Counted from the stretch's first letter, positions 5,186 through 22,964 are shown. The stretch is DNA of 23,778 nucleotides from a virus (IMGVR_UViG_3300024999_000399:1-23778), one strand, 5' to 3'. Numbers and translations: made by a program. Notes: generated by a model from the sequence alone, not told the origin.

Positions 5186-7660
5186 TTAGTATCCCTCGCG
5201 TTGAGCAGGTCTGTATGGGTTGTGGGTAGCCAGTGGATTAAACTGGTCATCATAAACTGTGTAATCAGCGGGGTCATATTTCCTGCCGGTGAGGAACATC
5301 GCACCATATTGTCCGCCCTCTACGAGATGCGAGCAGGGATGAGACTTGTCTGGCTTCTCGCCATATTCCTCACCAAACGCCTGCTTTTTGCGAGGGTATC
5401 GATAACTGGAAGCCATGGCCCCGATGAACGACTTGCAGGCAGGGTCAATGAGAATGGCAGGCTCACCGTCTGGGTACATGGAAAACAATTCGTCCAAGGC
5501 CTTTATCCTGACCTCCGGGTCGTTAGTCGACGCCGGCTTGGCGATGTATCCAGCGTCCTTGAACTCCTTGAAACTCGTGCCCTCATCAGAGTCCGCTCGC
5601 CGCACACCGGAGGGGTCACCGATCACGACGATCGGATTGGTAGGAAAGGTCGTCATCTGCATCGGCCGAAACCGACTTCTAATATACCGCTTCGTGCCCA
5701 TGTCGAACGCCGGTGTTTCCCGCAAGACAAATATTCGTCCGTCCTCCTGCATCTGCATCCATAGGCCTGCGGGGGTGAGCCCAAAATCTTGTCCAACAAT
5801 TACAGGTAGATATGGATTAATCGGCAGCGGTGTTTTCGATACGTGACGGTCCCGCCTGAAGGTCGCATGATAGACTGGCTTTCCTGACAATGAGGGAGCA
5901 TATAATCCATGCACGTAGGTATCTACCCACGCCTTGGTTTTGCCTTTGGCGAGTTCCTGGTAATAATCTGGTCGGAGATTCTCCACGTTCTCGGCTTCCA
6001 GCGAAGTCCCGGACGGCTGATGGAACGAATCTACCTCCATCACTGAATCGGGGTTGTTCTCTTCTATCGGCTGGTGCTCGAGGATCTTATACCACATGCT
6101 CTCAAACTCGGGAGGGTTGGTATCGGCCAGTACAAAACTGCGGTACTCAGGTACATCACTTCTTCTTGGAAACCTGCCAACCCGGCTCATGATAGCCTGA
6201 AGAATTTCCAAGGGGATTTCTCTGGCCTCATTTATCCATGCTGCACTGGCCTCCATAGAAAGCACTCGCTGAACGTCCTCTGGAGAGTCGAGCGCCCTGA
6301 ACATAATGTCGGACTCTACATCCTTAAACCTCAACTGGAAGATCATTTCAGATTCCTTCCATTTTCCGAAGACTCCTGGTTTGATCCACTCAATCCAACT
6401 GCGTAACGTGGTGTCTTTTAGTTGCTGGCGGGTTTGGCCGCTCCACACTGCTTTCCCGTTCCTGCGCACCAAAACGACATGACTTGGCACTGTAACGCAG
6501 TATACCATTCCATCATATTCCGCTCGGCTCCAGTTGTTGCACCGAATAATTGGGTTCTCTCGTTTAGGCTGTCGGATAGTTAAGCAATAACCTTCGCTGC
6601 TGTTATATATCGGATGTGCAGGAGATATCTGCATAGTGCCGGCTTGATGGCATGTCGTCAGTCGCGCAGCCCTTCCAGATCGAATGATCATTTCATGCAG
6701 ATCATTAATGAGATCTTTCGATGAGGAGTACAGCCTGTCCACATCATGCTTCCCGGTTTTGTGAACGCCGTCTCCTCGCTGAAAACCTTTTATAAATGCT
6801 GCCGCATATTCCCTCGGAGCGTCCTTTATATACTGAGGAAGTTTTTTCGTTGTCGACTTACCATACTGAGAAAGCTCAATGATCAAGTCCTTTACCCACT
6901 GTTCCTTGGTAGACACAACAAAGTCTAAACACCCTTGTTTCTGCAATTCATTCCAAGTGAATCCCACCGCGGCAAGCAGGTTCGCTACATACTCCCTGTC
7001 GTGCGTTCTGTGGGTCATTGTTAGTCTATAGTGATTCCCTCGTGTATCTGTCCGAGGATACACTCCGGCATACCCCTGTGCGAACCAAAAGCCGAGAAAC
7101 TCCCAGTATACTGGCAAATGGCCCGGTCGTTCGCCCTTCCAATCACAGATAGAAGTCATCCGGTGAAGTTCGCCGATACCTTCAATCTCCTGCGCCGGCA
7201 CATGCTCATAATCGAACCATATCTTTTTACGTGTGCGCCGCGTAGATACCCACAACTCGTGGTCGGGCGTAATGCAAAGGTCGACATCCTCATTAACGAT
7301 GTTGATCATGTCCCCCTTGTATGGCGCAGCATGGTAGTAAGACGGCTTCTCAAACGTGAGCACCCCATCTACCCGGGTCGCGACTTTGTCTTCTGGGTGC
7401 AGATACTTAAATGGCACCCATCCACGCTGCTCGGTTAGAATCTCTGTCTGATCGTCGTAACAGTTCCTGACTACGACATATCGCGATCGCCGAATACCAT
7501 CGGCGCACGGAGGCATCAGCATAGCTTGGCGAAACACCTCAATGATGCAACCTACTGATTTTCCGCTCCCGACAGGTCCTTTTATGGCTCGAAAGAACGC
7601 GTCGGAGCGCATAAATTTCGACACTGTAGGTGGTGCTGTGTAATTAAATTCGTAACTCAT
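5186..7660 (-). CDS. terL: Terminase large subunit interrupted in frame by an intein
   Basis: 824 aa as translated, about 481 aa after removal of residues 67-409. The mature protein is the packaging motor. The ATPase Walker A is GPVGSGKS (28-35). The segment ending ASAAWINEAREIP (471-483) fits Walker B with its catalytic Glu. LADTNPPEFE (511-520) is the coupling motif. The RuvC-like nuclease begins VIVGQDFGLTP (620-630, Asp625), with a second acid in VIGDPSG (Asp682) and SHLVEGGQYG near the end (777-786). The intein splits the conserved VVVRN/TRQQLKDTT motif. The start has GAGGAG upstream and overlaps the zinc-finger gene by ATGA. Without splicing the ATPase fold would be disrupted. Confidence 0.95.
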   Translation of the reverse strand: MSYEFNYTAPPTVSKFMRSDAFFRAIKGPVGSGKSVGCIIEVFRQAMLMPPCADGIRRSRYVVVRNCYDDQTEILTEQRGWVPFKYLHPEDKVATRVDGVLTFEKPSYYHAAPYKGDMINIVNEDVDLCITPDHELWVSTRRTRKKIWFDYEHVPAQEIEGIGELHRMTSICDWKGERPGHLPVYWEFLGFWFAQGYAGVYPRTDTRGNHYRLTMTHRTHDREYVANLLAAVGFTWNELQKQGCLDFVVSTKEQWVKDLIIELSQYGKSTTKKLPQYIKDAPREYAAAFIKGFQRGDGVHKTGKHDVDRLYSSSKDLINDLHEMIIRSGRAARLTTCHQAGTMQISPAHPIYNSSEGYCLTIRQPKRENPIIRCNNWSRAEYDGMVYCVTVPSHVVLVRRNGKAVWSGQTRQQLKDTTLRSWIEWIKPGVFGKWKESEMIFQLRFKDVESDIMFRALDSPEDVQRVLSMEASAAWINEAREIPLEILQAIMSRVGRFPRRSDVPEYRSFVLADTNPPEFESMWYKILEHQPIEENNPDSVMEVDSFHQPSGTSLEAENVENLRPDYYQELAKGKTKAWVDTYVHGLYAPSLSGKPVYHATFRRDRHVSKTPLPINPYLPVIVGQDFGLTPAGLWMQMQEDGRIFVLRETPAFDMGTKRYIRSRFRPMQMTTFPTNPIVVIGDPSGVRRADSDEGTSFKEFKDAGYIAKPASTNDPEVRIKALDELFSMYPDGEPAILIDPACKSFIGAMASSYRYPRKKQAFGEEYGEKPDKSHPCSHLVEGGQYGAMFLTGRKYDPADYTVYDDQFNPLATHNPYRPAQREGY
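6434..7462 (-). mobile_element. Intein with degenerate LAGLIDADG endonuclease domain in terL
   Basis: Residues Cys67 to Gln409 of the terminase reading frame (343 aa). Splicing block A begins CYDDQTEIL. Block B is TPDHELWV (131-138, with the TxxH pair). Two LAGLIDADG-like helices are visible: FLGFWFAQG (188-196), where the catalytic Asp position is Gln195, and IKGFQRGDG (290-298), which keeps Asp297. Block F is VYCVTVPSHVVLVRRNGK (386-403). The intein ends VWSGQ, with Thr410 as the first residue of the downstream host sequence. Instead of the usual His-Asn ending it has Gly408-Gln409. Boundaries are inferred from where the terminase motif resumes. Confidence 0.9.
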
Positions 7661-7851: not shown

Positions 7852-8044
7852 CTAGTCTCCTCAAGGTCAGTGCGTCCATGTAACAATCACCTATTGCGCG
7901 GAAAATTGCAACGAAATCAACGATCGAGTTATTCTCATTGACCAGCAACCGATTACCGGTGGTCTTCAGATGCAGCCCCGGCAGCCACCGGTCGCAGTTG
8001 CCGCAAGCGGCGCAGAGGAAAGGGTCAATAATTAGCTCATACAT
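7835..8044 (-). CDS. Small ferredoxin-like [Fe-S] protein
   Basis: 69 aa from the ATG at 8044, which shares its A with the endolysin TGA stop (TGATG), a coupling that decides the start. The layout matches single-cluster bacterial ferredoxins: IIDPFLCAACGNCDRWLPGL with Cys11, Cys14 and Cys17, and a fourth Cys54 in CYMDALTL, corresponding to the CPVxAI motif of the family. This predicts one [4Fe-4S] (or [3Fe-4S]) cluster in a small electron carrier. The Pro usually after the fourth Cys is Tyr. It lies between endolysin and the DksA-like gene. No redox partner is visible in the window, so its role is unknown. Confidence 0.72.
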   Translation of the reverse strand: MYELIIDPFLCAACGNCDRWLPGLHLKTTGNRLLVNENNSIVDFVAIFRAIGDCYMDALTLRRLDGRPA

Positions 8045-8565
8045 CAGTCTGTATCCTCTGCTCCGTAGAGCAGGTTGTTTGCAATTCGATCCATCCAACC
8101 ACGATTATTTTCTTGCCAGTTAGAAAGGTCTTTCAAAAACTTTATTCTAGCAGCAGTAATAATCATCACCAAATCTGAATCAGAAAATGATAATATCTTC
8201 GCTCGTGTATATGGACCTATTATCCCATCTGGTTTAACTCTCTCTCCACCAATAATAATATTCATATATCGCTGAAGTTCTTTAACTGCTTTACGAATAC
8301 CACTATGAACAGAAAAATCAATCAATTGAAACGTAATACCGTCTGGTAATGTTCGAGAAGAAATAGGTGTAATAAAATCTGTTAAATAAATGCCTGCGGC
8401 TTGTTCAAGAGTTAAACTCTTAATATTCAAATATGGATAAGATCGTTTACTGATCCCCCACTTAGTTTCGCCTCCAGGATCAGCTTTCGGAGAACGATTG
8501 GTATAGCCTCCCTCATGCCCATTGATCCTGATCAACCACTTCTTTATTGTTTCAAGAGTGGCCAT
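8044..8565 (-). CDS. Endolysin, glycoside hydrolase family 108 type
   Basis: 173 aa from the ATG at 8565; the frame extends eight codons further, but GAGGA nine bases upstream supports this start. The N-terminus has HEGGYTN with the putative catalytic Glu18, then DPGGETKWGIS (29-39), the hallmark of GH108 peptidoglycan hydrolases. The C-terminal half (KPDGIIGPYTRAKI and around) resembles the peptidoglycan-binding domain found with this family. No signal peptide or membrane segment is seen, so release to the periplasm probably needs a holin. The gene is visibly richer in A and T than its neighbours, suggesting later acquisition. Confidence 0.92.
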   Translation of the reverse strand: MATLETIKKWLIRINGHEGGYTNRSPKADPGGETKWGISKRSYPYLNIKSLTLEQAAGIYLTDFITPISSRTLPDGITFQLIDFSVHSGIRKAVKELQRYMNIIIGGERVKPDGIIGPYTRAKILSFSDSDLVMIITAARIKFLKDLSNWQENNRGWMDRIANNLLYGAEDTD

Positions 8566-9127: not shown

Positions 9128-9850
9128 TCACGCTTTTTCCAAAAACACGCACTCTCCGTGCTCATGCAGGAGTCTATCCATTTCGTCGGCCACGATCCAG
9201 ACCTCCCCGTCCACGCCGTGTTCCATTCCCCACGACTGAGCGATGCCTACCGCCCCGGTGTACTTGTTGTACCAAGTTGCCGCCACGCAGTGCCCACCGT
9301 CGATTGGTCCGCCGATGCGGATACGTCCGTCAGACTCTGGCTCGGACATTCGGGAGTACCAGGGGATTCCCACAACCGCCGTTCCGAAATAGCCGAGGCC
9401 GAGAATCAGTTCATCAATGGAAAACGCCCATCGGTATGATTTGATCAGCCCGAGGCGCTTGAGTTGTTTCACGCCTTCAAGTAGGGACGTTCCGCCCATG
9501 CGCGGGGATGCACCGGGATACTCGCCGCCGGGGAATGGGTCGTTTTTCTGCGCTTCCCAGTAGATTTGCTCAATGGCAAACCGCTCGTCGTAGGTTTCAA
9601 GATTACCGATATTCGGCTCGTAGCGCATGGCATTCGTCAGACCCATGCCGACACAGGCCCCTTCTCGGCCTTGATCGAGATGGTTGCCCGGTGCCTTGAT
9701 TCGCACCTTGGAAATCTTTTCCAGTCCATCCCATGCAAGGGTTTTTTCAAGTATCGCCTCGGTCACCCCAAACGACAGAGAGCGCGGGTCGAATTGCACC
9801 AGCCTGTCAAGTCTTGGGTCGCTCGTTTCTGTTCCGTCTCTGAGTATCAT
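9128..9850 (-). CDS. Papain-like (C1 family) cysteine protease
   Basis: 240 aa. The papain-type order of active-site motifs is present: DQGREGACVGMG with oxyanion Gln60 and nucleophile Cys66, DGGHCVAA with His187, and IAQSWGMEHG (203-212) where cellular enzymes have NSWG. Here Gln205 replaces the catalytic Asn. There is no signal peptide or long propeptide. Such proteins occur in several phage groups; roles in capsid maturation or host-protein cleavage are possible but unproven. Start ATG at 9850 has AGGGG seven bases upstream. It lies between the DUF5662-like gene and the lysis genes. Confidence 0.82.
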   Translation of the reverse strand: MILRDGTETSDPRLDRLVQFDPRSLSFGVTEAILEKTLAWDGLEKISKVRIKAPGNHLDQGREGACVGMGLTNAMRYEPNIGNLETYDERFAIEQIYWEAQKNDPFPGGEYPGASPRMGGTSLLEGVKQLKRLGLIKSYRWAFSIDELILGLGYFGTAVVGIPWYSRMSEPESDGRIRIGGPIDGGHCVAATWYNKYTGAVGIAQSWGMEHGVDGEVWIVADEMDRLLHEHGECVFLEKA

Positions 9851-10373: not shown

Positions 10374-10889
10374 TCACACTCCTGGGATGCCAAGTGAATT
10401 GGTGTTGTACGCAGTCGGGCCAACCTTGCGATAGTTCGCCCACGGAATGCCGCCGCCGAGCCTGACCATGCAATACGCTCCCCATGCCCGATACTTCGCC
10501 CCGGTTGCCGCGATGGTCACATCTCGCAGGGTTGCATCAAAGAATTGCCGCGTCTCTCCGATACAGACCGGGATGTTTCCACCGAAGGCGTATTTATGGC
10601 CGTTCATGATCGCCTCTGCCCTTGTGCCGGGGTTGTAGTCTCCAAAGTCGGGCGTGAGCAAATAGCCATGCTGATATCCGAAGTCGTGAGGAAGTGAGCC
10701 ATAACGAAGGATTCCCATCGGTGAGGCTATCGGCCAGAGGGGGCGCGGGACACTGGCAAAGTCGGTCTCAAACCCTTCCGGGATGATTATCGGTCTGCTA
10801 TTACCAATCTGATACACCCAGTCTTCAAGCAGTCTGGACTGGATGCCGCCCTTGATAAACTCGAATTTTGGCTCTGGAAAATGGTTCAT
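10374..10889 (-). CDS. DUF1353-like protein
   Basis: 171 aa from the ATG at 10889, with TTAGGAGAG upstream and an ATGA overlap with the preceding zinc-ribbon gene. The block IIPEGFETDFASVPRPLWP (35-53) and the following LPHDFGYQHG (67-76) match the DUF1353 signature of Pro-x-Gly-Phe-x-Thr-Asp-Phe-Ala-Ser and a His-Asp pair. DUF1353 proteins are common in phage late regions, often near lysis or tail genes; their activity is unknown to me. The family match is good, the role open. Confidence 0.78.
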   Translation of the reverse strand: MNHFPEPKFEFIKGGIQSRLLEDWVYQIGNSRPIIIPEGFETDFASVPRPLWPIASPMGILRYGSLPHDFGYQHGYLLTPDFGDYNPGTRAEAIMNGHKYAFGGNIPVCIGETRQFFDATLRDVTIAATGAKYRAWGAYCMVRLGGGIPWANYRKVGPTAYNTNSLGIPGV

Positions 10890-11059
10890 ATCTCTCCTAA
10901 CGATGGCATGGTAGGGCGAATCTGGCAAAACTCGCACTCCTGATCTGCACATTTTTCGTCAAGCCATTCGTCACATACAGCGCAAAACCAGGAATCGTGA
11001 AAGTCTGAGTAATCACCCTGCTCTCCGCATTTTGGGCAAACATGCAAAACCCTGCTCAT
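10886..11059 (-). CDS. Tiny zinc-ribbon protein
   Basis: 57 aa, too short to be obvious, but bounded by ATGA overlaps at both ends (with the nuclease upstream and the DUF1353-like gene downstream) and preceded by GGAGG nine bases from the ATG. Cysteines form CPKC (8-11), CAVC (26-29) and a third set at 37, 42 and 45, so it probably binds one or two zinc ions. A nucleic-acid or protein-binding role is usual for such ribbons but not shown. Confidence 0.8.
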   Translation of the reverse strand: MSRVLHVCPKCGEQGDYSDFHDSWFCAVCDEWLDEKCADQECEFCQIRPTMPSLGEI

Positions 11060-11520
11060 TGTGATCGCCTCCACTCCCAAGGCCGAACCGGCGCAGGCTG
11101 TGCCCACAGTCCGACCCGGTTGCCCGCGCTGATGCCTTGCAGTGTGCTCCATGCCGTGCAGAATGATTTCCGGCAATACTGAGGGTATACCCAGGCGTAA
11201 CCGGCGAGGATCAACTGCTCTTGCAGGTTCTGCGTGCCGTACATCACGATTGCCGACCTTCGCCCCCACCCGCCGTCGCCGGTAAATATGATGTCGACCA
11301 TTTTGCCGTTTACAAAGGTCTCTGTAAAATTTCTTGCAGACATTCCGTACGCTTGTTTTATTTCAGGGCTGTCGACGCCATAGAGCCTGATTGATTCCGT
11401 TTTCCCGGAAAGTGTGACTTCGATTGTGTCGCCGTCGATTACTCGCGTCACCCGGGCCAGTTCGGCTTGGGCTGAGGTGGCGAGTAAGAGAATGAGGATT
11501 ATTGCCTTGATAGCCATCAT
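11056..11520 (-). CDS. Secreted staphylococcal-type nuclease
   Basis: 154 aa. Residues 1-19 form a Sec signal peptide (hydrophobic IILILLLATS, cleavage after SAQA), so the enzyme should act in the periplasm or outside. The SNase fold is evident from VTRVIDGDTIEV (24-35), SIRLYGVDSPE (43-53) with Arg45 and Glu53, and GWGRRSAIVM (84-93) with an Arg in place of the third catalytic Arg. This family cleaves DNA and RNA with Ca2+. The start overlaps the preceding gene by ATGA. Possible jobs are scavenging nucleotides or destroying incoming phage DNA in the periplasm. Confidence 0.88.
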   Translation of the reverse strand: MMAIKAIILILLLATSAQAELARVTRVIDGDTIEVTLSGKTESIRLYGVDSPEIKQAYGMSARNFTETFVNGKMVDIIFTGDGGWGRRSAIVMYGTQNLQEQLILAGYAWVYPQYCRKSFCTAWSTLQGISAGNRVGLWAQPAPVRPWEWRRSQ

Positions 11521-11759
11521 TCAGCCCTGTCGGTACATTTAATTTCCCATGGATGATCTATCTTGACTGGGCCATATATCGGCGGAAACGGCTGAAATGG
11601 CGCAGGCCCTAATTTATGAGGGTACGAAGGGGGAACATATACCGGAGAAGGCGCATTCTTGGTAAACATCCCGGCAAGTGCCGCATGAAGTTCAATCGCC
11701 TCTGCCACTGTCAGTTCAATTGATTTCTCGCCGATATTTATCGTGATTGTGATTTCCAT
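11517..11759 (-). CDS. Small protein with Pro/Tyr-rich C-terminal half
   Basis: 80 aa. The N-terminal half (MEITITINIGEKSIELTVAE and following helix) looks folded. The C-terminal half is rich in Pro, Tyr and aromatic residues (VYVPPSYPHKLGPAPF). AGGAGAG lies just before the ATG, and the stop overlaps the nuclease start. No family recognised and no signal peptide. Confidence 0.7.
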   Translation of the reverse strand: MEITITINIGEKSIELTVAEAIELHAALAGMFTKNAPSPVYVPPSYPHKLGPAPFQPFPPIYGPVKIDHPWEIKCTDRAE

Positions 11760-11766
11760 GTCTCTC

Positions 11767-11955
11767 CTATGGTTTTTCGCACAGCTTTACACCTGTTGAT
11801 TGTTTCCTGAACCAGTCGCAGGATTTATCCGCCCTGCCGTTGCAGTCGAACGAGAAGCAGGGGCCCTCTTCCTTGCAGTAGCGGTCCTTGACTGCGTGAA
11901 TACCATCTTCGTCTCTTGGTTCCATGTGCAGGCTATCCTCAGCAATGACTCTCAT
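11767..11955 (-). CDS. Small Cys-rich protein
   Basis: 62 aa from the ATG at 11955 (AGAGG seven bases upstream); an in-frame start at 12000 would overlap the previous gene by 25 bases. Five cysteines at 27, 33, 38, 46 and 59 with the phrase CFSFDCNGRADKSCDWF suggest metal binding or disulfides, but the spacing is not a standard ribbon. Function unknown. Confidence 0.65.
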   Translation of the reverse strand: MRVIAEDSLHMEPRDEDGIHAVKDRYCKEEGPCFSFDCNGRADKSCDWFRKQSTGVKLCEKP

Positions 11956-11975
11956 CGGCAAACCTCTCTTGAGAT

Positions 11976-12170
11976 TTATTCCCGGTAACACCCCTTGCAC
12001 TTGTCGCTGTTCCTGTTTCTACAGATCATGCACGGCTCAATGTATTCAACCTCATCAAAAAGGTCAGGCTTTCCTTCTTCCATGACACCACCACACTCGC
12101 AGGTCGTTCCCTTCACTTCATCCTCAACGGTTTTGCCATCTTCACAGACTGGGCATACAAATCGTTTCAT
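11976..12170 (-). CDS. Small double zinc-ribbon protein
   Basis: 64 aa with a strong GGAGGGAG site before the ATG. Four Cys pairs are present: CPVC (6-9), CEC (24-26), CMIC (47-50) and CKGC (58-61), enough for two zinc sites. The first pair with TTCECGG is typical of zinc ribbons; the second half resembles small phage Cys-cluster proteins. Role unknown. Confidence 0.75.
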   Translation of the reverse strand: MKRFVCPVCEDGKTVEDEVKGTTCECGGVMEEGKPDLFDEVEYIEPCMICRNRNSDKCKGCYRE

Positions 12171-12197
12171 TTCTCCCTCCAGGGAGGCTTGTCAGCC

Positions 12198-12284
12198 TCA
12201 ACAATCATCCTCGTCGCTAGGATACCCACATACCGGGCAATAGCCTCCGTAATACCTGTGTCCGCAATTTTCGCAGGTTGTCAT
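12198..12284 (-). CDS. 28-residue zinc-ribbon micro-protein
   Basis: Starts at an ATG six bases after the stop of the secreted-protein gene and ends 28 bases before the next start. Almost the whole protein is a zinc ribbon: CENCGHRYYGGYCPVCGY, with pairs at 4/7 and 16/19, then an acidic tail. The Shine-Dalgarno is weak, so translation may depend on coupling. The dense, canonical motif is the main support for a real gene. Confidence 0.65.
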   Translation of the reverse strand: MTTCENCGHRYYGGYCPVCGYPSDEDDC

Positions 12285-12290
12285 TTGCGC

Positions 12291-13085
12291 TCAGTTGTAA
12301 TACATGGTGACGGTATTGCTCTTATCGCCGTATGCAGCATGAAGATAGATACCGCCGTGGCTGGTGCCAGTATCTTTGTCACCTTCGCCGTTCGGACCTA
12401 TTCCTGGCTTGTAGACGAATCCATCTTTATTTTGAGATGACGGTATATCGCAGGTATCGGGATTATTCCCACGGCAATTCTTGGAGGTGTTCTTTATTGT
12501 GTACTCTTTCCCGCTGGCGAAAACGAATTTGATCTGGCTACCGTAAGACGGGCCTTTCCCCGAGATTCTCCAAGCCTTTCTCCCCCCGTTCCTTTCACCG
12601 TAGCTCGTAAACACCTTGCTTTTGCTGTACCCGATCGTCGGAGTGCTCGGCCCGGCAGGTGTATCGCTCGACCCACTCACAGCCGTACAGGTCTGGCCGT
12701 CGCTGGTCTGAACGACGAACTTCAGCGGCCTGGAATACTGATCCCCGGACTTGCTCATGAGGAAAACAGGGGCGTTCTTGTATGGCTTGCCCAGTCGTGC
12801 AACCTCGCCATTTACCGACACGGCTGTAATTGATCCTGCTTGCAGTGTGCGAAATAGGATCGCCGCCGCGCCGTTGCCTTGATCGCTGTCTCGCTCAAAT
12901 GTAATCGGCATCGTGCAGACCTTGCCGGTCGGCGGCACGACAGGAGGCGTTACCGGAGGAACAACCGAGCCGCCTGGAAAGTATTGGTTACAAAGAGCGT
13001 TGCACTCTGCGAGAGACGTTGGGATTGCTTGCGCCCCTGCGGTTGATGCCAGGAGCAATGCCAAGAGAACGACCAGCCATCTCAT
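12291..13085 (-). CDS. Secreted protein of unknown function
   Basis: 264 aa. A Sec signal peptide spans about 1-20 (WLVVLLALLLASTAGAQA). Then come a short Cys-containing segment, a Pro-rich linker (VPPVTPPVVPPT, about 42-53), a domain with TFERDSDQGNG, and a C-terminal domain rich in Gly, Lys and Tyr ending SNTVTMYYN. At least six cysteines after the signal could form disulfides in the periplasm. I recognise no family. It directly follows a lipoprotein gene (shared boundary at 13085) and is part of a run of exported proteins. Confidence 0.75.
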   Translation of the reverse strand: MRWLVVLLALLLASTAGAQAIPTSLAECNALCNQYFPGGSVVPPVTPPVVPPTGKVCTMPITFERDSDQGNGAAAILFRTLQAGSITAVSVNGEVARLGKPYKNAPVFLMSKSGDQYSRPLKFVVQTSDGQTCTAVSGSSDTPAGPSTPTIGYSKSKVFTSYGERNGGRKAWRISGKGPSYGSQIKFVFASGKEYTIKNTSKNCRGNNPDTCDIPSSQNKDGFVYKPGIGPNGEGDKDTGTSHGGIYLHAAYGDKSNTVTMYYN

Positions 13086-13492
13086 CAGTCCACCTCTTCA
13101 ACTGTGCCTGCCGGCGCATCTTCGAGGGCTTCGGGTTCGGCAATTTCTTCCTCGACTGCCGGAGGCACAACCTTATCGGTTGGATTAAGCGATGGCAGGC
13201 TCGGGAGAATGCTCTTAACCTTGTTAGCCATAGCATCCATCACACCACTTGCATCAAGGTCTGAGTTGGAGTCCTGGTTGGTTTCCTCAATGATAATGAC
13301 CGTGTTCCCTGCGCCGCCGCTGTTTGTCGATCCTGCCCCGGTCTGGTTACCTGGAGATTCTGAGAGGCCACGGGCTACGACCTGCGGTTGAGCACAATCT
13401 GGTGCGCCCTGATTGAATGTGTACTCAGCATTTTTGATTGTGCAGGAAGTCAGCAGAAGCAGAATGGCAATTATCAAGTAGCTCTTTTTCAT
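13085..13492 (-). CDS. Lipoprotein with acidic/Pro-rich tail
   Basis: 135 aa from the ATG at 13492, preceded by AAAGGGG; the frame extends nine codons further without support. The signal MKKSYLIIAILLLLTSC gives a lipobox LTSC with lipidated Cys17. The mature part is rich in Gly, Asn and Ser, then has a VIIIEE strand, and ends in a Pro/Glu/Ala-rich tail. It should be anchored in a membrane with a flexible periplasmic domain. An outer spanin or a surface-modifying lipoprotein are possibilities; no inner-spanin partner is evident. Confidence 0.75.
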   Translation of the reverse strand: MKKSYLIIAILLLLTSCTIKNAEYTFNQGAPDCAQPQVVARGLSESPGNQTGAGSTNSGGAGNTVIIIEETNQDSNSDLDASGVMDAMANKVKSILPSLPSLNPTDKVVPPAVEEEIAEPEALEDAPAGTVEEVD

Positions 13493-13509
13493 AATTTCCC
13501 CTTTGAATT

Positions 13510-13854
13510 TTAATACCATTTGTCAGCCCCTCCTTTGCAATGCTCAAGCTCATGCTTCATCAGAAAGCTCGGTGCCCAGACTTCACATCTCTGTACTCCC
13601 CCCTTACCGTCCGGGATTACATCAGCGCAGGCCCAGATCCCACCAAAGAAGATAAGGGTGAAGACTGGCCGCTCTTTCAGCATCTCCCAGTGGCACTTTG
13701 CCATTGCTACAGGAAGAAGAACCTCGTGAATTTCCAGATCAGGAATATCTACAAGTCTTGTTTCATGATCAATTCCTGGAAGAAAACTTCCTCCGGGCGT
13801 TGGAGCACAGGCTGAGAGTGTGAACAGAGCAAAGATGAGCAGAAGATTTGCCAT
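13510..13854 (-). CDS. Lipoprotein with HExxH metalloprotease-like motif
   Basis: 114 aa from the ATG at 13854, which shares its A with the upstream TGA (TGATG). The signal MANLLLIFALFTLSAC has lipobox LSAC and lipidated Cys16. Near the C-terminus FLMKHELEHCKGG (98-110) contains HELEH (101-105), the zinc-metallopeptidase HExxH pattern. The usual third zinc ligand would have to come from elsewhere, since only about nine residues follow. The motif may therefore mark a reduced or inactive zincin. Membrane-anchored, presumably periplasmic. Confidence 0.75.
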   Translation of the reverse strand: MANLLLIFALFTLSACAPTPGGSFLPGIDHETRLVDIPDLEIHEVLLPVAMAKCHWEMLKERPVFTLIFFGGIWACADVIPDGKGGVQRCEVWAPSFLMKHELEHCKGGADKWY

Positions 13855-14219
13855 CACTTCGCTGTAATGTTGGTAATCCTCGGCTTCGGACCCCAGTCAA
13901 TGAACAGATAAGGGTCAGATTGCGGAGACTCCTGCCCATCGCTAAAAAGTGCAGAGAGGGTGTACCTGGTAATCTTCGCCGTCAGCACAACATCGCAGGT
14001 GCCAATCCTGGCTATCGGAACGCTCCATTCACAGGTTGGTTGACCTTCCTGATAGAGTTTGAACCCAGTCAGGCTGAGGTCAGATGGAGTATCGTATGAC
14101 CACTCGACAGTGATGCTCCGATTCCAACTAGGTGTTGCACTGGATATCTCAGGCCAGAAAAATGCTGTGAGCAGCATCACCAAAATCCATAACCATCCTT
14201 TTGTTACAAGTTTTTTCAT
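13854..14219 (-). CDS. Exported fibronectin type III-like protein
   Basis: 121 aa from the ATG at 14219 with a strong GGAGGG site; earlier in-frame starts lack one. The N-terminus (MKKLVTKGWLWILVMLLTAF, then EISSA) is a signal peptide. The mature part has SITVEWSYDTPSDLSLTGFK followed by strands and a YTLSALFSDGQESPQSDPY segment, the usual order of an FN3 domain. Two Cys (in PTCEW and GTCDV) may be bridged. Such domains bind proteins or sugars; an extracytoplasmic binding role is inferred. Confidence 0.75.
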   Translation of the reverse strand: MKKLVTKGWLWILVMLLTAFFWPEISSATPSWNRSITVEWSYDTPSDLSLTGFKLYQEGQPTCEWSVPIARIGTCDVVLTAKITRYTLSALFSDGQESPQSDPYLFIDWGPKPRITNITAK

Positions 14220-14286
14220 AATCCCTCCAATGAGCATTTCCACACGTTCGCAACCTCGACCCCATCTACTGTGGTTGGTTGCCAGA

Positions 14287-16236
14287 TCATGACACCCCTA
14301 AATATCTATCAGCCTGCATCTGTTCAGTAGCATCCAAATCTTCCCCGTAAATCAGCATCCCCCGAGGCCCGATCCGTGTCCGTGCCGTTGCGGAGAGCGT
14401 ACTCAAATCAACAGCAGCCTCCCCGGTCCACTCGGGGATCCCCTGGAACTTCGGGCCGAGGGGAGCCTTGATGGTGACTGCCGGGTAGGTGGTGCCTGCT
14501 GTGATGGTGGCTGAGACGTTGAGGGGGCCGGGGTATTGGACAGGAAAAGCTGTTCCGTCCGAATTAATTCCAGCCAACGGCGGCACTCTATACCCCGTAG
14601 GAACAATTACATTTTTGGGGAGATATAGGGAATATTTCCAAAGTTCGGCCATAGCTGAAACTCCGACCTGAGACAGATGCACTCCATCATAATCATATGC
14701 GGTTTTTAGATCATCAATCTCCCCAGTTGATATCCTAACCTGCCCCATATCATCATGGCATTGGACCAGAGTTGCATTATTTACTAAGCACCAAGCGGCA
14801 TAGTATGTATTCCACAATCTAATAGTCGCATTCTGTACATCGGTGCCATCAGACCACGGCAAAATCTCATCTACATACAACGCTGTCTCTGTTGGTATTA
14901 GCGCACGAATCGCATCCATGTCCGACTCAACAGCGGCCCACGTTCTACCGGCCTGGACATCATTAACCCCAACGTGTATCCATATAGCACTTGCCCCAGA
15001 TGCAATGCACGCTGGAATCCCTGTAGTCAGACACCAGTCCCATTTTCGCGTCCCGTCCGCAAAGTCGCGGTAATTCCCAAATGTCTTGCCATCAGCCGCT
15101 ATGCTCAGAGACAAACGGTGCATAATACATGCGTTCAAGTCGCCTGCGGGGCCACCAAAATACCCATGCCATACCCCCTGATTCATACCCTCAGCTATTG
15201 AGTCTCCTGTTACCGCCATAAACGGAGTATCTGCGACAGCCGTTATGTTCATTACAAAACCATTGGAGAGCGTCAGAAATTGGTTGCTTTCGGTGATATC
15301 TCCAGCCGTATATCGAATGCTTGCAGCTCCTTCGCTGAGGTTTGAAACGTATATCTTTGCAGGGGTTGTGATGTAAAGCCCCAAATAATCGCCGGGAAGG
15401 CAAGGGATGGGCTGGCTCAAAGCATATGTAGCCGTTCCGATTGGTGCAGTTATTGTTTCGGACTCTCCTACGAATGTATAATCAGATCCCACCAACCGAA
15501 ATACTTTTACCTTAAAATTACCAGCCGTATGAACCCCCAAGACAACCTTTTTGATAGGCCCAGTTTGCTGTATTCTCCTCGTAATACTCGCCTGGATGTA
15601 TGTAGAGCCTGCGGCAAGTGTTGTAGACGCTAGAAAACTACCCTGGGCCAACCCGCCAATATGAACATCACCCCCTGGGGACTCTAGAGATTGGATTCCA
15701 GGCATGTACACGGTGCTGCCATCCGATGTTGAAAACCCAGATTCATTAGCATAGTTTGTTCCGGTGCCATCCACCGCCTCAACAATCGTCGTGGTCGTCA
15801 GGTACAAGTGATGGCCCAGTCCACTCGCATCCACCTCAAACGCACCGCCGACATTTATCCCCGGCAGGTACGCCCAGAGCACTCCACCACGATGGATGGA
15901 CATATCCCAAAAGTTTGCGGACATGCTCAAGGTGCCATTTACCGCGCAAGTTGGGGCAGTGCCGCTTGCTGTGATTACATCTGTCGTGAGAATCCCCGTG
16001 TAGGCCACATCTTCCGGGACGGCTACGCTGAATAGCGAGCCTTTGACCTGGGGAGTGCTGGAGCCGATTGGGCGGTAGGCTTGTAGGCGGCCGTCTATGA
16101 TATCGCCTTTGTAGTATGCCAGGAGAGCGCCGGTCTGCAGGTCCTGCACCCAGAACGGTCTCTCAGCGGCGCCGGTAACTCCCCTGCCGGTTCTGCCGCA
16201 GATCGGCCTGAAGATGCTCCGCGCTACGCCGCTCAT
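14287..16236 (-). CDS. Tail spike/fibre with SGNH (GDSL) esterase domain
   Basis: 649 aa. Residues 1-70 look like a virion-attachment region; 100-330 are beta-rich. An SGNH hydrolase domain follows: block I VTGDSIAEG with nucleophile Ser346, block III HVGVNDVQAG with Asn425, and block V YDYDGVHLS with Asp517 and His520. Such domains in phage spikes usually deacetylate host surface polysaccharide during adsorption. The C-terminal 85 residues are a different beta-rich part. It overlaps the preceding gene by four bases. The middle is less GC-rich than both ends, suggesting exchange of the host-recognition part. Confidence 0.88.
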   Translation of the reverse strand: MSGVARSIFRPICGRTGRGVTGAAERPFWVQDLQTGALLAYYKGDIIDGRLQAYRPIGSSTPQVKGSLFSVAVPEDVAYTGILTTDVITASGTAPTCAVNGTLSMSANFWDMSIHRGGVLWAYLPGINVGGAFEVDASGLGHHLYLTTTTIVEAVDGTGTNYANESGFSTSDGSTVYMPGIQSLESPGGDVHIGGLAQGSFLASTTLAAGSTYIQASITRRIQQTGPIKKVVLGVHTAGNFKVKVFRLVGSDYTFVGESETITAPIGTATYALSQPIPCLPGDYLGLYITTPAKIYVSNLSEGAASIRYTAGDITESNQFLTLSNGFVMNITAVADTPFMAVTGDSIAEGMNQGVWHGYFGGPAGDLNACIMHRLSLSIAADGKTFGNYRDFADGTRKWDWCLTTGIPACIASGASAIWIHVGVNDVQAGRTWAAVESDMDAIRALIPTETALYVDEILPWSDGTDVQNATIRLWNTYYAAWCLVNNATLVQCHDDMGQVRISTGEIDDLKTAYDYDGVHLSQVGVSAMAELWKYSLYLPKNVIVPTGYRVPPLAGINSDGTAFPVQYPGPLNVSATITAGTTYPAVTIKAPLGPKFQGIPEWTGEAAVDLSTLSATARTRIGPRGMLIYGEDLDATEQMQADRYLGVS

Positions 16237-21735: not shown

Positions 21736-21984
21736 ATGATGTTAAAATGTGAAAACCCTAAAACAAATCCACAACATATTATTGAAGAATTTGAAGACAG
21801 CGAAGAAGGGCTGCAGCACGATAACAATATAGCCGCAGACTTCGAGCACGGTCAGTGGTTTATAACCTGCCTTTCCTGCGGTGCTCAGTGGTCTGTTAAT
21901 GATGCTGAAGGAAGAGATGGAGAGTACTACCAGTTTGACCAGGTCACTGTTGGAGATGAGTATTGCTATAGCCAAGTGGATTAA
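21736..21984 (+). CDS. Small zinc-binding protein, paralogue B
   Basis: 82 aa, start ATG at 21736 followed at once by a second ATG, either usable; AAAGGAG is upstream. It is 80% identical to the protein at 18568: residues LQHDN...DAEGR (35 in a row) are unchanged, while the acidic N-terminal linker and the C-terminus differ. All four Cys are kept. The coding DNA differs at roughly fifteen synonymous sites in the unchanged stretch, so the copies are old and both selected. Confidence 0.85.
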   Translation: MMLKCENPKTNPQHIIEEFEDSEEGLQHDNNIAADFEHGQWFITCLSCGAQWSVNDAEGRDGEYYQFDQVTVGDEYCYSQVD

Positions 21985-21994
21985 AGGAGGATTT

Positions 21995-22201
21995 ATGGAA
22001 TGCTATTATTGCAAAGGGAGTGGGAAAAATACCGATAAAAAAGAAGTTGAGTGGATATATAAACATGAAAAAATGAACCCAGTTCCAGAGTGGCGGAAAC
22101 AACTAATTGAAATGTGTCCGTATTGCCACGGCGGGGGAAAGAGTGAGGTCTATAACAAAGATGGGTCATTTAAAGGGGAAGGATATTGGGACCAGAGATA
22201 G
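21995..22201 (+). CDS. Small protein with two DnaJ-type CxxCxGxG motifs
   Basis: 68 aa from the ATG at 21995 (AAAGGAGG six bases upstream). CYYCKGSGK (3-11) and CPYCHGGGK (about 47-55) are the two halves of a DnaJ-like zinc-binding site. Between them lies a Lys/Glu-rich helix. There is no J domain. A stand-alone zinc protein that may bind unfolded protein or nucleic acid is inferred. Confidence 0.78.
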   Translation: MECYYCKGSGKNTDKKEVEWIYKHEKMNPVPEWRKQLIEMCPYCHGGGKSEVYNKDGSFKGEGYWDQR

Positions 22202-22246
22202 GAACCTCACAGTGCAAGCATTAATTTAACCAAAAGGAGAATCAAA

Positions 22247-22690
22247 ATGTACTTGGATACCAGGGAATTATACAAGCGTCAATGTGAACTGGCCGAAGAG
22301 CTTGATAGTCTGAAGTATGATGTTGAGTGCGCTCAGGAGGCCCTTGAAGATAATGAAGATCCGGACGAACAGGAGGACCTCGTTGATAAACTAGATAATG
22401 CTGTCTCCGATCTCGATATCTGGCAGGCTGAGTACCAGGAAGAGCTTGACGAACTGAACGCCCTTGAGGATGAGGTCGGCCGGGAGTGGATGCACGGCGA
22501 GACCTTGATAGACGAAGACGAATTTACCGACTACGCTGAAGACCTGGCCGCCGACCTGCACGGCGACGCAGTGACCGACGCCGCCTGGCCCTTCTCCCAT
22601 ATCGACTGGGAGGCCGCCGCTGACGAGCTGAAGCAGGACTACTCAGAAGTCGAATACCAGGGCACCACCTACCTTTTCCGGGCAAACTGA
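22247..22690 (+). CDS. Acidic conserved-type phage protein
   Basis: 147 aa, strongly acidic. The N-terminal half is a coiled coil (ELAEELDSLKYDVECAQEAL and on). The C-terminal half has DYAEDLAADLHGD, then WPFSHIDWEAAADELKQDYS and a VEYQGTTYLFR end, a phrase order familiar from many phage early proteins. The high negative charge is compatible with a DNA-mimic role, but no known anti-restriction family is recognised. AAAGGAG before the ATG. Confidence 0.78.
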   Translation: MYLDTRELYKRQCELAEELDSLKYDVECAQEALEDNEDPDEQEDLVDKLDNAVSDLDIWQAEYQEELDELNALEDEVGREWMHGETLIDEDEFTDYAEDLAADLHGDAVTDAAWPFSHIDWEAAADELKQDYSEVEYQGTTYLFRAN

Positions 22691-22691
22691 T

Positions 22692-22964
22692 ATGGCCAAA
22701 TACTCAAGAGTAGGCGAGATATTCGAGGAGTTGAGGAACCTTAAAACGGAGGTTAAAGAGATGAAAACCACACTGACCGAGGAAGACAAACAGAAGTACG
22801 TCAAGAGCGGCGGGGCAGTCTGCCCGTACTGTGGAGAGTGGAACGTCGAGGGCGCGTTCTGCGAGACAAACGAGGGCTTTGCCACTCAGAAGATGTTTTG
22901 TACTGAGTGCGAGAAATCCTGGTATGACATCTATACCTTAACCGCTATCCAGACGGAGGTCTAA
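22692..22964 (+). CDS. Zinc-ribbon protein
   Basis: 90 aa from the ATG at 22692, one base after the previous stop but with no clear ribosome-binding site. A second ATG at 22761 (67 aa) has a strong CGGAGG site and may be the true or an additional start. CPYC and CTEC pairs with SGGAVCPYCGEWNVEG and a C-terminal KSWYDIYTLTAI are typical of small phage zinc ribbons. The stop overlaps the next ATG (TAATG). Confidence 0.8.
   Translation: MAKYSRVGEIFEELRNLKTEVKEMKTTLTEEDKQKYVKSGGAVCPYCGEWNVEGAFCETNEGFATQKMFCTECEKSWYDIYTLTAIQTEV

Follow-up and report, generated by a model that had tools for sequence, protein, structure and literature searches.

What would lead a phage to encode five exported proteins within one late operon? 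The question is raised by a cassette in a 23,778-base virus record from IMG/VR (IMGVR_UViG_3300024999_000399; the whole stretch is called the window here). The cassette encodes an FN3-like protein, two lipoproteins (HELEH and lipo144), a secreted protein (sec264) and an SNase-family nuclease (Table 1). Phage research has mostly been concerned with virion components or with proteins that act in the cytoplasm. The answer favored here, tentatively, is that the cassette serves as a late kit whose exported proteins mask or trim surface receptors and cut extracytoplasmic DNA at the host envelope. This answer draws on the export signals and their clustering, purifying selection, conserved gene order, translational coupling, the late-strand position, the exported fibre-like proteins of related phages, the intact catalytic residues of the nuclease, the weak likeness of sec264 to carbohydrate-binding modules and the precedent of phage T5 Llp. 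A late cassette of exported proteins that is conserved and moves horizontally, with signal-bearing fibre-like proteins among its members, would mean that certain phages exert control over the exterior of a host cell as it dies. It also supplies cloneable genes with which to test for masking of receptors, lysis at the outer membrane and removal of DNA outside the cell.

Are the five proteins real, and are they exported? All five open reading frames (ORFs) described by the sequence-only reading were found in place on the minus strand. They are tightly packed, with three small non-exported genes separating sec264 and SNase, and the anatomy of their predicted signals supports export. Signals and lipoboxes were called by a conservative rule of our own rather than by SignalP, and the rule misses some homologues (e.g., SNase in the related records G008 and G024). 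By this rule, a Sec signal or lipobox is present in 5 of the 8 genes in 11056-14243 and in 1 of the 41 genes elsewhere in the window, a clustering that bears out what had been claimed. At internal Met starts, the rule gives a positive call in 0.5% of cases (10/2146). In the relative G026, it fires in four of five cassette genes and in none of the 88 genes outside. Among homologues of the cassette proteins the signal sequences are divergent and the mature parts conserved, and the lipobox Cys, which follows a hydrophobic signal, is invariant in both lipoprotein families. The lipo144 ORF reaches 13519 with an earlier ATG. Judged by the ratio of nonsynonymous to synonymous polymorphism (pN/pS), which is 0.16-0.44 across the five exported proteins, the cassette genes are under purifying selection.

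Is the cassette a fixed unit? Relatives of sec264 were collected from 59 viral loci, which reduce to 40 distinct sequences; upstream sequence is available in 32 distinct loci and downstream sequence in 29. On the upstream side, lipo144 is present in 26 of the 32 testable loci, FN3 in 12 and HELEH in 6, while another exported-looking protein of at least 90 amino acids occurs in 28, a figure that includes a few doubtful calls. On the downstream side, the small cytoplasmic protein g11767 is found in 20/29 loci and SNase in 19/29. The usual order runs from the spike through variable exported genes to lipo144, sec264, g11767 and SNase, followed by one or two genes, a peptidase (phrog_16701) and a lysozyme-type gene. 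The expectation that the genes would co-occur in the same order in other phages was thus borne out in related IMG/VR phages, across the 40 distinct sec264 loci. The idea of a five-member cassette survives in part: the proteins are real, but they do not form a fixed set, as FN3 and HELEH are swappable and small non-exported genes are interspersed. On this comparison, the recurring core is lipo144, sec264, g11767 and SNase.

The core is carried by a podovirus-like phage clade whose capsid protein is of the N4-gp56 type. The capsid protein of the window belongs to PHROG 1357 and shares 38-39% identity with its counterparts in Pseudomonas phage Rollin and Pseudoalteromonas phage vB_Pun_Y3; the vB_Pun_Y3 protein is annotated as a member of the N4-gp56 family. 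In record G024, the capsid protein is 29% identical to that of the window, yet lipo144, sec264, SNase, DUF1353 and the peptidase are 77-93% identical, which argues that the block moves horizontally between phages. No homologues of sec264 or HELEH were found in GTDB genomes, and none of HELEH in plasmids. Searches of annotated phages by sequence with the whole window, sec264 and HELEH gave no match. A tyrosine-recombinase-like ORF lies within the variable exported region of one relative (L120:7855-8697) and is a possible route of cassette exchange.

Of 25 distinct junctions between lipo144 and sec264, 24 have a single base shared by the stop codon of the former and the start codon of the latter (TGATG, TAATG or TAGTG), and a ribosome site resembling GAGGAGGT lies within lipo144. 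This arrangement indicates that the two genes would be translationally coupled and their products made together. The position of the ribosome site for sec264 would also explain the conserved EEVD-like end of lipo144, where it lies. Part of the clade has sec264 homologues without a signal peptide (L113, L114, L115, L118, L120, L129, G010 and G008). These start MPTCPKC, and a CPxC zinc-ribbon-like motif replaces the CxxxC of the exported form.

What occupies the slot of variable content that separates the signal-less spike from lipo144? In the window, it is filled by FN3 and HELEH, and in relatives by exported proteins of ~190-760 amino acids. Among the latter are fibre-like proteins of mosaic build, apparently exported, that have segments in common. 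One of these has matches to parts of cyanophage proteins annotated as tail fibres (E=5e-5), and other slot proteins match Beta_helix (E=2.6e-13), Laminin_G_3 (below the cut-off) and GH123_N. Fibre repeats, beta-helices and lectin-like domains are also features of phage depolymerases and tail fibres, free or virion-borne. The slot proteins differ from these in carrying N-terminal Sec signals or lipoboxes, where a virion-attachment domain would be expected, and in lying beside a separate signal-less spike. When compared, the exported fibre-like proteins showed little overlap with signal-less proteins from this clade. That phages can encode envelope proteins and secreted enzymes is already known; what is added here is the exported fibre-like proteins of the relatives.

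Tailed phages assemble in the cytoplasm. An exported fibre would be hard to join to a virion assembled there, and the fibre-like slot proteins therefore look like free or anchored surface-binding proteins. Because fibre-like and sugar-active exported proteins share this slot, surface glycans or receptors are suggested as their targets. It is very improbable that some cassette proteins are instead tail components whose signal peptides are incidental or remnants. The fibre-like architecture in relatives, the position adjoining the spike and the loss of the sec264 signal in part of the clade would fit such a role. However, signals and lipoboxes are kept in form across divergent homologues, and the same cytoplasmic assembly and the separate spike just upstream speak against it.

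Which activities might the individual proteins bring? SNase matches PF00565 with E=7e-13 (49.3 bits against a cut-off of 21). The catalytic Arg35, Glu43 and Arg87 and the calcium ligands Asp21 and Asp40 are all kept in the window protein, with Thr41 replaced by Ser. The nuclease site is therefore intact and activity is predicted. Its homologues conserve the signal, the catalytic residues and a Cys pair, the last being consistent with an oxidizing compartment. Domain, catalytic residues and export signal are shared with secreted (thermonuclease-like) nucleases of PF00565, whereas the cassette protein is set in a phage late operon adjoining lysis genes. Its best-covering phage-database matches have ~29-34% identity over 85-90% of the protein (e.g., in Moraxella phage Mcat8). 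PADLOC returned a generic SNase match and nothing else.

For HELEH, the sequence-only reading had proposed a protease-like part. The motif side of this proposal holds: HExxHCxG and four mature Cys are invariant in 9/9 homologues, and the Asp and Tyr that follow are kept in 8/9 (the exception for Asp ends before that position), satisfying the metzincin/zincin motif HExxHxxGxxH/D. The fold side found no match: the mature protein of ~100 residues, modeled with a predicted local distance difference test score (pLDDT) of 84, gave no Foldseek match in the PDB better than E=1, to a zincin or any other fold, and no meaningful family or PDB sequence match was obtained. HELEH likely holds a zinc site and would be at most a putative protease. 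The FN3-like protein is likewise confirmed as an exported ORF, with 21 invariant positions in 10 homologues, but the name FN3 is an assignment by sequence pattern. The protein has no match in Pfam and only weak profile matches to the NagJ chain 2w1n (E=0.069) and CslF6 (E=0.012). The predicted model of sec264 is mostly beta-strand, with two beta-sandwich-like domains (pLDDT 80); its predicted template modeling score of 0.47 leaves the domain arrangement uncertain. Foldseek gave weak structural likeness to expansin C-terminal and amylase-type carbohydrate-binding modules and to Ig-like folds, and the Pfam match to Expansin_C is equally weak (E=0.074).

Could lipo144 instead belong to lysis? In this unlikely account, it would cooperate with the neighboring endolysin at the outer membrane in the manner of a spanin or disruptin, and SNase would only thin the lysate. 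Like Rz1 of the Rz/Rz1 spanins, lipo144 is a small lipoprotein near an endolysin, with a Pro-rich low-complexity tail and a lipobox for which outer-membrane sorting is predicted. Where a locus extends far enough, lipo144 precedes the genes for peptidase and lysozyme, and no other spanin candidate was seen among the late genes of the window. In two relatives that lack the cassette, the interval from the spike to the lysis genes encodes unrelated lipoproteins whose acidic tails contain Pro (G014, 33384-33990; G019, 23660-24256). Unlike the spanins, however, lipo144 has no significant homology to this group and no partner: the translations of the window and its relatives were read for an N-in inner-membrane i-spanin with a periplasmic coiled coil, and none was found. 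Nor is lipo144 a u-spanin, as it has no C-terminal membrane segment. Its matches to Rz-like spanin PHROGs are weak (best E=0.018-0.06) and cover mostly the signal peptide, and the alignment of its homologues has no conserved block. A role in lysis would also leave FN3, HELEH and the exported fibre-like proteins unexplained.

The sequence-only reading had favored superinfection exclusion, with lipoproteins blocking receptors during infection and a periplasmic SNase destroying the DNA of superinfecting phages. The exported nuclease and surface lipoproteins are indeed present, and there is a precedent in phage T5, whose lipoprotein Llp blocks the receptor and prevents adsorption to lysed fragments (PMC9586334). 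The likeness to Llp and Cor-type outer-membrane lipoproteins, which can shield receptors during and after infection, is that of a small phage lipoprotein sent to the envelope. A match to the Cor superinfection-exclusion PHROG was seen in 3 of 14 lipo144 homologues, but it is weak (best E=0.018), and in the window protein it spans profile positions 1-20 only, which correspond to the signal. No homology to Llp or Cor is seen beyond the signal peptide, and the cassette lipoproteins differ in being part of a late group of several genes that includes a nuclease and, in relatives, proteins of sugar type. As a homologue of either spanins or Cor, lipo144 was rejected, the matches being weak and centered on the signal. 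Superinfection exclusion is usually expressed early by phages (PMC9586334), and a late-operon position would leave little time for protection. A tyrosine recombinase (integrase) was found in just 1 of 9 related records; lysogenic conversion was rejected on this count, and a prophage role is not evident. Exclusion during infection is given a low probability.

Lying on the late strand, with the spike on one side and the lysis genes on the other, the cassette is placed no less suitably for action at the end of infection than for exclusion. In the late kit proposed here, the host envelope would be the target of the exported proteins toward the end of infection. The variable members would bind or trim the surface glycan or receptor recognized by the phage's own spike, lipo144 and sec264 would hold or act at the outer membrane, and SNase would cut DNA in the periplasm and the lysate. 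Progeny and rival phages would then not be wasted on a dying cell or its debris, incoming DNA would be cut, and virions would leave a less sticky lysate. Several observations weigh against this proposal. SNase is not found near sec264 in about one third of the loci with downstream sequence. Wherever the junction can be read, the genes for signal-less sec264 homologues still overlap lipo144, and export of sec264 is therefore not always needed. The Foldseek matches that suggest sugar binding by sec264 lie above E=0.001. Furthermore, no such cassette was seen in the inspected regions of the isolated phages Rollin, StenR_269 and vB_Pun_Y3, which have related capsids.

A broader and more doubtful version would see a dedicated secretome of this phage clade. 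Here, spike- or fibre-like proteins, in which a signal or lipid anchor replaces virion attachment, would be exported late and join the coupled pair and the nuclease to coat or strip host receptors and destroy external DNA. The window would then represent a pared-down form in which FN3 and HELEH take the place of the fibres. In a separate reading, biofilm polysaccharide and extracellular DNA might be digested by SNase and the exported sugar-active proteins, opening the way for progeny. The beta-helix, GH123-like and LamG-like exported proteins of relatives and the exported DNase would suit this. It is nevertheless improbable, as SNase is the sole recognizable enzyme of that kind in the window and lipid anchors would retain parts on the cell. 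No described phage cassette of this kind was found in the open-access literature, subscription papers being outside the scope.

Table 1. Features of the cassette and its surroundings, in window coordinates.
Feature	Position	Strand	Remarks
Probable virion spike with GDSL-like domain, without signal peptide	14287..16236	-	PF13472 E=1.8e-6, below curated cut-off
FN3-like exported protein, 121 amino acids	13854..14219	-	Predicted Sec signal or N-terminal anchor; 2 conserved mature Cys
HELEH lipoprotein	13510..13854	-	ATG start; lipobox LSAC; HExxHCxGxxDxxY
lipo144, second lipoprotein	13085..13492	-	MKK start; lipobox LTSC; low-complexity tail rich in Pro and Glu, with EEVD at its end
Overlapping stop/start TGATG with GAGGTGG ribosome site inside lipo144 end	13080..13100	-	Predicted coupling to sec264
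sec264, secreted protein, 6 Cys	12291..13085	-	Signal ends AGAQA; N-terminal CxxxC segment, Pro linker
Small Cys-rich (zinc-ribbon-like) protein, not exported	11976..12170	-	Homologue among related contigs searched: near-identical G001 only
g11767, 62-amino-acid Cys-containing cytoplasmic protein	11767..11955	-	Conserved-core member
80-amino-acid protein, non-exported, not conserved	11517..11759	-	Homologue among related contigs: near-identical G001 only
Exported SNase-family nuclease (PF00565)	11056..11520	-	
Peptidase-family protein (phrog_16701)	9128..9850	-	Conserved downstream neighbor
Endolysin (Glyco_hydro_108)	8044..8565	-	Lysis genes downstream of cassette

The minus strand of the window carries, in order, the spike genes, the cassette, the lysis genes, the terminase, the portal, a scaffold-like protein and the major capsid protein. 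Beyond 17.5 kb, the plus strand carries small early-type genes, including one for a repressor-like helix-turn-helix protein. Pattern scans for promoters and terminators yielded no excess over chance. The end of the SNase gene is overlapped by a gene for a small Cys-rich, zinc-finger-like protein of 57 amino acids (10886-11059, minus strand).

The TerL gene (5186-7660, minus strand) contains an in-frame insert of ~343 amino acids (residues 67-409; window 6434-7462) that is missing from relatives. The insert begins with Cys, ends SGQ before Thr and has a match to a thymidylate-synthase PHROG (E=1.6e-6); it resembles an intein whose C-terminal Gln is non-canonical. In the relative G008, whose TerL is without the insert, a GIY-YIG-like protein (21943-22878), homing endonuclease-like by the start of its sequence, is encoded directly upstream of TerL.

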